A DNA stretch of 64,000 bases from Fodinibius halophilus. Its GTDB lineage: Bacteria; Bacteroidota; Rhodothermia; Balneolales; Balneolaceae. Below the pieces are notes generated by a model. The model was not told the DNA's origin. It saw nothing but the letters and a program-made list of their open reading frames with translations, and ran no database searches. Shown here piece after piece: positions 13,791-48,774 of this stretch. Position numbers and translations under genes: made by a program. The stretch is taken from positions 124,001-188,000 of the forward strand of contig NZ_JAALLS010000001.1 in NCBI RefSeq assembly GCF_011059105.1. The letters are read 5' to 3'. Every line of letters begins with the position of its first letter. The stretch's first letter is position 1.

Positions 13791-13921
13791 GGGAGCTTTG
13801 CAAAACTCGGTAATGTCATCCTGAATTCAGTTCAGGATCTCGGTTTTAATGCTAATAACTGTATATGAGATGCTGAAACAAGTTCAGCATGACAAGATGT
13901 GACTAGTTTCGCAAAGCCCCC
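13791..13921. repeat. Composite inverted-repeat element, copy 1 (short form)
   Basis: A 131-nt element between glsA and a histidine kinase gene. Its ends are GGGAGCTTTGCAAAAC (left) and the inverted GTTTCGCAAAGCCCCC (right). Inside, each arm holds its own hairpin: TCCTGAA..TTCAGGA on the left and ATGCTGAA..TTCAGCAT on the right, each bordered by ATCTC or GAGAT. The whole is an imperfect palindrome. Its interior (for example CTAATAACTGTATA with GAGATGCTGAAA or variants) recurs almost unchanged in the copy at 48365-48646. Confidence 0.8.
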
Positions 13922-14140
13922 TATTAAATAATCAAAAAAATAATAGAAAGGGAATCTTTTATATAATCCAAAAGGGAAATCTTAGCCTATTAGCTTATGC
14001 AGATTAATATCTAAATAGATAAAAGGTTTTGTGCTATCAGGTCTCTTGATGAACGTATCCCACTTATGAAAGTGATATTGTTTCTACTTTCGAAACCATT
14101 GGAACTGAGAGATTGGCAAAGAAAAAAACGCGGTTCTTAA
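13922..14140. other. Gene-free AT-rich spacer before the PepSY remnant
   Basis: No gene, hairpin or promoter match is seen here apart from possible decayed coding sequence from about 14060 onward, which continues into the remnant described next. Confidence 0.4.
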
Positions 14141-16205: not shown

Positions 16206-16335
16206 AAGGGCCCTTTGCAAAACCAGGCAGTCATCCTGAATGTAATGAAGGATCTCCCTTTCAAGGGCAGCAGATGGATACTGGAGATTCTTCGACAAGC
16301 TCAGAATGACGAAATCAAAGGTTTTGCAAAGCCCT
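16206..16335. repeat. Composite inverted-repeat element, copy 2
   Basis: A 130-nt element with the same plan as the copy at 13791. The left end is GGGCCCTTTGCAAAAC and the right end is the inverted GTTTTGCAAAGCCCTC. Left-arm GTCATCCTGAA..GGATCTCC corresponds to right-arm GGAGATTCTTCG..CAGAATGAC. The interior sequence is diverged from copy 1, but the order end, GTCAT hairpin, ATCTC, centre, GAGAT hairpin, ATGAC, end is the same. It lies 93 nt before the DUF4382 start codon. Confidence 0.75.
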
Positions 16336-21121: not shown

Positions 21122-21136
21122 GTTTTGCAAAGCCCT
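21122..21136. repeat. Solitary end of the composite inverted-repeat element
   Basis: GTTTTGCAAAGCCCT, identical to the right end of the elements at 16206 and 48365, appears here without a matching left end or internal hairpins. It is either a decayed copy or the remains of an excision event. The following T run extends to 21141. Confidence 0.55.
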
Positions 21137-48364: not shown

Positions 48365-48646
48365 GGGAGTTTTGCAAAATTCGGTATGTTATCCTGAACC
48401 TGTGCTACGAAGCCATACCTGCACTTAAGGGTTTCGACAGATTACACCTTGGCGTAGTAGTAATGAGTTCAGGATCTCGGTTTTTAAAGTTAATAACTGT
48501 ATACGAGATGCTGAAAGAGATACTTCGACAGGCCAACCTGCGCCAGGGTATAACCTACTGAAACCTAAGGTGTAGGTCTGGCTTCGGCTGATAAACTCAG
48601 TACATGGTTCATGTATCACAAGATGTGACTAGTTTTGCAAAGCCCT
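48365..48646. repeat. Composite inverted-repeat element, copy 3 (long form)
   Basis: A 282-nt element with ends GGGAGTTTTGCAAAA and the inverted GTTTTGCAAAGCCC. Apart from two internal additions it aligns with copy 1 (13791-13921): GGATCTCGGTTTTTAAAG, TTAATAACTGTATACGAGAT and ACAAGATGTGACTAGTTTTG recur. The additions sit in each arm at the tip of the small hairpin, and the right-arm addition is close to the reverse complement of the left-arm one; for example GAAGCCATACCTGCAC on the left matches GAAGCCAGACCTACAC on the right's complement. The whole element is thus one long imperfect palindrome. Confidence 0.8.
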
Positions 48647-48774
48647 TTACAATGCTTTTTGGGAATGATCTCTGTAATAAACATTCCAAGTTTTCAAAAC
48701 TTGGAATGTTTGTATTGTAGCCCAACACACATGGTTACCAGTAGGAATGGGCTAAGATCGGCAGGCTATCAGGC
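48647..48774. other. Short spacer with ATTCCAAG/CTTGGAAT hairpin
   Basis: CATTCCAAGTTTT and AAAACTTGGAATG (48685-48710) form a perfect stem of about 13 bp around 48697. With the T-rich sequence on the left this could act as the terminator for the minus-strand RND operon ending at 48775. Nothing else is seen. Confidence 0.6.

Follow-up and report, generated by a model that had tools for sequence, protein, structure and literature searches.

A palindrome of 280 bases lies at positions 48365..48646 (+ strand) of the window, that is, the whole 64 kb stretch of DNA that was analysed. This is an A-type copy of a MITE, a small mobile DNA element, and it carries long cassettes in the loops of both of its REP hairpins. 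Its left terminal inverted repeat is GGGAGTTTTGCAAAAT (48365..48380, +) and its right one is GGGCTTTGCAAAAC (48632..48645, -). The REP hairpin GTTATCCTGAAC ... GTTCAGGATCTC forms the left arm (48388..48478, +) and has a loop of 67 nt; the right arm (48505..48619, -) is an inverted REP hairpin, GAGATGCTGAA ..., with a loop of 92 nt and a degraded outer stem TTCATGTATCAC. The left loop cassette is the long module (48400..48466, +) and the right one is named level 3 (48516..48607, -). The two cassettes share a core, which lies at about 48409-48457 in the left arm (GAAGCC...GCGTAG) and at about 48538-48585 on the minus strand in the right arm. The target duplication of this copy is not intact (TAAAT vs TACAA), and the orthologous intergenic region in the same-genus genome G010 is an empty site without the element. 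Rfam search of the region gave no credible family. Just downstream, at 48679-48711 and between two genes, there is a perfect 16-bp inverted repeat (AAACATTCCAAGTTTT/AAAACTTGGAATGTTT), which looks like a terminator.

The window contains other members of the family. An A-type copy with short loops, TTCAG on the left and ACAAG on the right, is located at 13791..13923 (+) with TATTA flanking both sides, and a B-type copy with the 5-bp duplication TCAAA is located at 16207..16335 (+). A solitary terminal repeat, GTTTTGCAAAGCCC, is located at 21122..21135 (-), and a search of about 1.5 kb to each side gave no partner. An earlier sequence-only reading of this DNA had noticed the B-type copy (placed at 16206) and the solitary end, and both exist as it described. 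It also stated that the 13.8 kb and 48 kb copies share ends and interior, which is matched with an alignment identity of 88-92% over ends and spacer; the REP stems are common to both copies as well. For each of the three window copies, the predicted fold is much better than those of dinucleotide shuffles (z -6.7, -4.2 and -7.2).

The left REP loop is 67 nt in the 48 kb copy vs 5 nt in the 13.8 kb copy (+62), and the right one is 92 nt vs 5 nt (+87), so the extra nucleotides reported for both arms are real and the growth is similar but unequal. The two inserts of the 48 kb copy are mirror-image related over about 51 columns with 76% identity; the local alignment score is 25.5, while 5,000 shuffles averaged 8.3 and reached 17.5 at most. 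It means that the inserts are approximate reverse complements, as had been claimed.

The arm REP has the form GTC-ATCCTGAA-loop-TTCAGGAT-CTC, and the loop of its basic form is CTTGT. The pattern GTCATCCTGAACTYGTTTCAGGATCTC with at most 3 mismatches gave 70 matches, and none in the reversed control. In the REP stems 98.3% of the stem cells are paired with 8 double-sided changes, a level that none of 500 shuffles reached. Among 22 distinct sequences, the third stem pair is C-G, G-C or U-A, and no one-sided change was seen. The REPs have the features of the CGTC type: a CGTC/TGTC head, a stem of 8-9 bp, A-T in the first two positions and a short tail. The 4-5 nt loop of that type is present in the basic form, and the cassette-bearing forms have 16-92 nt. 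By these sequence features, the arms fit the CGTC/TGTC-tagged REP superfamily.

CGTC-tagged REPs were described in 2013 (PMC3733652) with loops of 4-5 bp, and repeats with unusual loops were discarded from that survey; they are reported to have no associated transposase gene, and the way of their spread was left open. The REPs reported here are similar to them in the TGTC head, the 8-bp stem starting with a paired A-T, the basic loop of 5 nt, the short unpaired tail, the compensatory stem changes and the presence of dimers. They differ in that loops reach 92 nt, the tail is CTC instead of CCA, and the REP pairs are located inside an IS5-type MITE. Here the tails face inwards, which is a rare arrangement according to PMC3733652 if its head/tail convention is read correctly.

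The surveyed genome is a draft of 4.19 Mb in 91 contigs, in which repeats can be mis-joined. It has about 29 near-complete A-type copies with the spacer ...GGTTTTAA...TAATAACTGTATATG..., and at least 40 copies of the 129-bp B type with 95-100% identity, one of which is the copy at 16207. The sequence-only reading was right that this is a palindromic element of the mobile type whose family extends across the genome, and this family is much larger than the window shows; the other part of its overall interpretation, the coupling of the two arms, did not hold, as described below. Copies across the genome have the ends GGGRGCTTTGC and a 5-bp target duplication, and many B-type copies have perfect duplications such as TTATA, TCGCA, TATCA and TTTTA.

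No transposase matching the DDE_Tnp_1 or Y1 profiles was present in the 64 kb window, which agrees with the sequence-only reading. The autonomous element was not found among exact end copies or at contig ends; it was located through PF01609 profile matches as a resident IS of 1,278 bp. This IS has two copies, at C41:2391-3668 and around C15:53843, with the ends GGGAGCTTTGCAGAAC / GGGGGCTTTG and the 5-bp duplications TTAAA and TAATA. It shares with the A-type MITE the ends GGGAGCTTTGCARAAC on the left and GGGGGCTTTG on the right, including the asymmetry of GGGAGC on the left and GGGGGC on the right, and both IS copies and many MITE copies have the same duplication length of 5 bp. The transposase frame of 306 aa matched the IS5-family model NF033581 at 242 bits (cut-off 140) and also Pfam DDE_Tnp_1, which has five matches in the genome, two of them in this IS. 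The two transposase copies are 85% identical over the aligned frame. Judging from the ends and the duplication length, this IS5-family transposase probably moves the MITE.

The element resembles known IS5-family MITEs in the terminal inverted repeats, the 5-bp target duplication matching a resident IS5-family element, the lack of apparent coding capacity and the recent burst of near-identical copies. It is unlike them in its interior, which is a REP hairpin pair and not an IS remnant. REPINs linked to RAYT (PMC3116915, 2011) also have two inverted REPs and a spacer folding into one long hairpin, but they consist of GTAG-type REPs with RAYT, whereas IS5-family ends with target duplications are found here. 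Mobilisation by RAYT was rejected because none of the eight Y1 loci in the genome has these REPs as its own ends, so there is no REP-flanked Y1 transposase gene as in REPINs. At one Y1 locus, a separate B-type MITE lies about 0.5 kb away.

Each arm holds one loop from a shared, interchangeable set. The left-arm loops are TTCAG, the palindromic CGACGGCTGTCG, a short module (GTGCTACGAAGCC joined to TTGGCGTAGTA) or the long module with an inserted tip, and the right-arm loops are ACAAG, TCCGCCAGCCGGCGGA, level 1 (AGAGATACTTCGACAGGCTCAGTACATGG), level 2, or the level 3 of the 48 kb copy. The loop size ranges from 5 to about 92 nt across cassettes. The same cassettes are found in REPs with other stems (CCTGAA, CCCGAA, ATCGC and ATTGC), and the C27 copy has a right-type loop in its left arm. 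In the cases examined, solo REPs included, the cassettes keep one orientation relative to the REP head. The long module was also seen outside REPs (L012, L013, L141, L024, L026, L140, L021 and L025), and there the repeated contexts recur as larger composite repeats, for example ...ACCTGCACTAT followed by the module and ATCAAGAAAGTTTCGGTGTGCTCGC....

The mirror-image relation of the two inserts over about 50 nt was the basis for the earlier proposal that hairpin-templated copying or arm-to-arm conversion had lengthened both arms of the 48 kb copy together. Among 27 full copies there are 10 left/right loop combinations. Of the six copies with a long left arm, four have a short right arm and two have a level-2 or level-3 right arm, and in five copies the right loop is lengthened (level 1 or 2) and the left one is short; the association of long left with long right gave Fisher p = 0.10. 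Unequal arms, which the sequence-only reading had itself set against its symmetry, are thus found in many copies across the genome. The 110-nt backbone is identical in the 13.8 kb copy and C9:73307, and the right loop differs. The fewest loop-state changes for the 27 copies are 9 (left) and 12 (right) on a backbone tree with weak support (2 of 23 branches starred). The loop state can hardly be predicted from the backbone sequence, and the two arms change independently. Because cassettes have a fixed orientation and the two REPs are mutually inverted, related cassettes in both arms form mirror images; with independent arms, mirror-image lengthening follows from this layout and is no proof that one arm copied the other.

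The core sequences also bear on this proposal. The two cores of the 48 kb copy are 76% identical to each other. In comparison with its right core, the left cores of other A-type copies have an identity of 80-82%, and the right-type core of one solo REP has 80%. The flanks of the two cores of the 48 kb copy differ, with CTGTGCTAC... on the left and ...TTTATCAGCC on the right (REP orientation), and each matches other copies of the same arm type. Since the right core resembles other copies at least as closely as the left core beside it, recent arm-to-arm copying is unsupported at this locus and was rejected, and we regard coupled lengthening of the arms as very improbable. A conversion-like process, as a more general part of the proposal, probably does act on the element.

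The replacement of a loop can be seen at a single insertion. This one insertion is present three times, at C67:37076, C9:58799 and C9:73307 (L033, L039 and L040), each time in a copy of a larger dispersed repeat. The three have common flanks and an identical left arm and spacer; their right loops are ACAAG, TCCGCCAGCCGGCGGA and AGAGATACTTCGACAGGCTCAGTACATGG, respectively, which are unrelated sequences of 5, 16 and 29 nt. An empty paralog of the insertion site adjoins C9:73307. Identical left arms with three right loops mean that the loop of one arm was replaced alone and in place; this is observed in the draft assembly of 91 contigs, and the order of the replacements is not polarisable. The surrounding dispersed repeat is about 200-300 bp with GGGGAAGAACAAGATGGGGTCAGAA and CTCTCCCTACTCGCCGCAGGGAGAG motifs, and it has several copies that are partly tandem. 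At two other A-type loci, C45:151694 and C8:115, duplicated sequence lies next to gaps. Two chimeras are joined at a REP stem: C34:16493 (L042), which has a B-type left half and an A-type right half joined at TTCAGGATCTC, and C11:64016, which has an inverted right arm.

We think it likely that the element is an IS5-type MITE of two inverted REP hairpins whose loops are swapped as cassettes via the REP stems. An IS5-family transposase would recognise the two GGGRGCTTTGC ends and move the MITE, producing the 5-bp duplication. The interior is two inverted REP hairpins with a short spacer, and after transposition the REP stems would serve as short homology handles, where the loop of another genomic REP would be copied by a nascent strand that has stalled or slipped, or during repair. 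Loops would thereby behave as cassettes, and the 48 kb copy would have a member of the longest cassette family in each arm. With a length of only 8-11 bp, the stems are short for RecA-type conversion, which speaks against stem-mediated conversion, and no loop-replacement intermediate was seen among the copies examined.

The cassettes might instead be tiny mobile palindromes that inserted into REP loops, one inside another, with the hairpin kept. Solo REPs have ACTTG on both sides of the long module, as in GGACTTG-TGCTACG...GTAGT-ACTTGTTTC in L022 and similarly in L028, the module exists outside REPs at L012, L013, L021 and L025, and the right-arm states do nest, with level 1 in the REP loop, level 2 in level 1 and level 3 in level 2. 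However, no target duplication is seen where the palindromic loop TCCGCCAGCCGGCGGA or the level-1 loop takes the place of the short loop, neither a transposase nor consistent ends were found for a 60-nt element, and the flanking repeats of several solo copies are imperfect. Nested insertion therefore seems rather unlikely to us, and we infer replacement by template switching or conversion between REPs.

Still less probable is that the long form is ancestral and that deletion of hairpin tips, by replication slippage or a hairpin nuclease, made the short forms. Palindromes are known to lose their tips, and the junction of GAAGCC with TTGGCRTAG, with 2-nt microhomology, is the same in two A-type copies and two loci of another species (L091 and L093). 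But the same junction across species fits an ancestral short form at least equally, and the TCCGCCAGCCGGCGGA and CGACGGCTGTCG loops are not derivable by trimming the long module. Loop replacement, nested insertion and tip deletion may all contribute.

More generally, and tentatively, REPs in this genus could be cassette holders with 8-11-bp stems, in which any REP swaps its loop with any other in place and in fixed orientation; the IS5-type MITE would spread pairs of such holders and supply the missing transposase link of CGTC-type REPs. IS elements inserting in REPs (PMC1525189, 2006) likewise show that REP hairpins are preferred for new DNA, but the inserts here are hairpin-forming cassettes of 16-92 nt and not full insertion sequences.

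IS5-family MITEs, dimers of REPs and variation in REP loops are already known. Our search of the open-access literature gave no match for nested palindromes in REP loops or for MITEs in this genus; nor did we find, in the literature searched, a MITE with a resident IS that contains pairs of CGTC-type REPs, exchangeable cassettes that form REP loops of up to 92 nt, or in-place loop replacement at a single insertion. The presence of CGTC-type REP pairs between IS5-family MITE ends, with target duplications and a resident IS, makes the question of their spread testable. The triplicated insertion, with three different loops in one arm, offers a naturally occurring example of hairpin-loop replacement, through which the rewriting of hairpins in replication can be studied.

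A-type relatives gave matches in 11 of the 12 genus genomes searched, own genome included, though part of them are REP pairs that lack MITE ends. The long module had no match in pattern scans of a contig collection that may lack the species of the window, and the same scans found the short module form in one contig of Aliifodinibius salipaludis. The sequence of this locus (L157) is identical to that of L091 in a relative from the genus, to which A. salipaludis therefore probably belongs. One A-type insertion is common to two species (L047 at G000:C89:23936 and L159 at G010:C1:1427690) with flanks 98-99% identical, either by recent transfer or by unusual conservation; in contrast, G000 and G010 are only about 71-82% identical around the 48 kb element.
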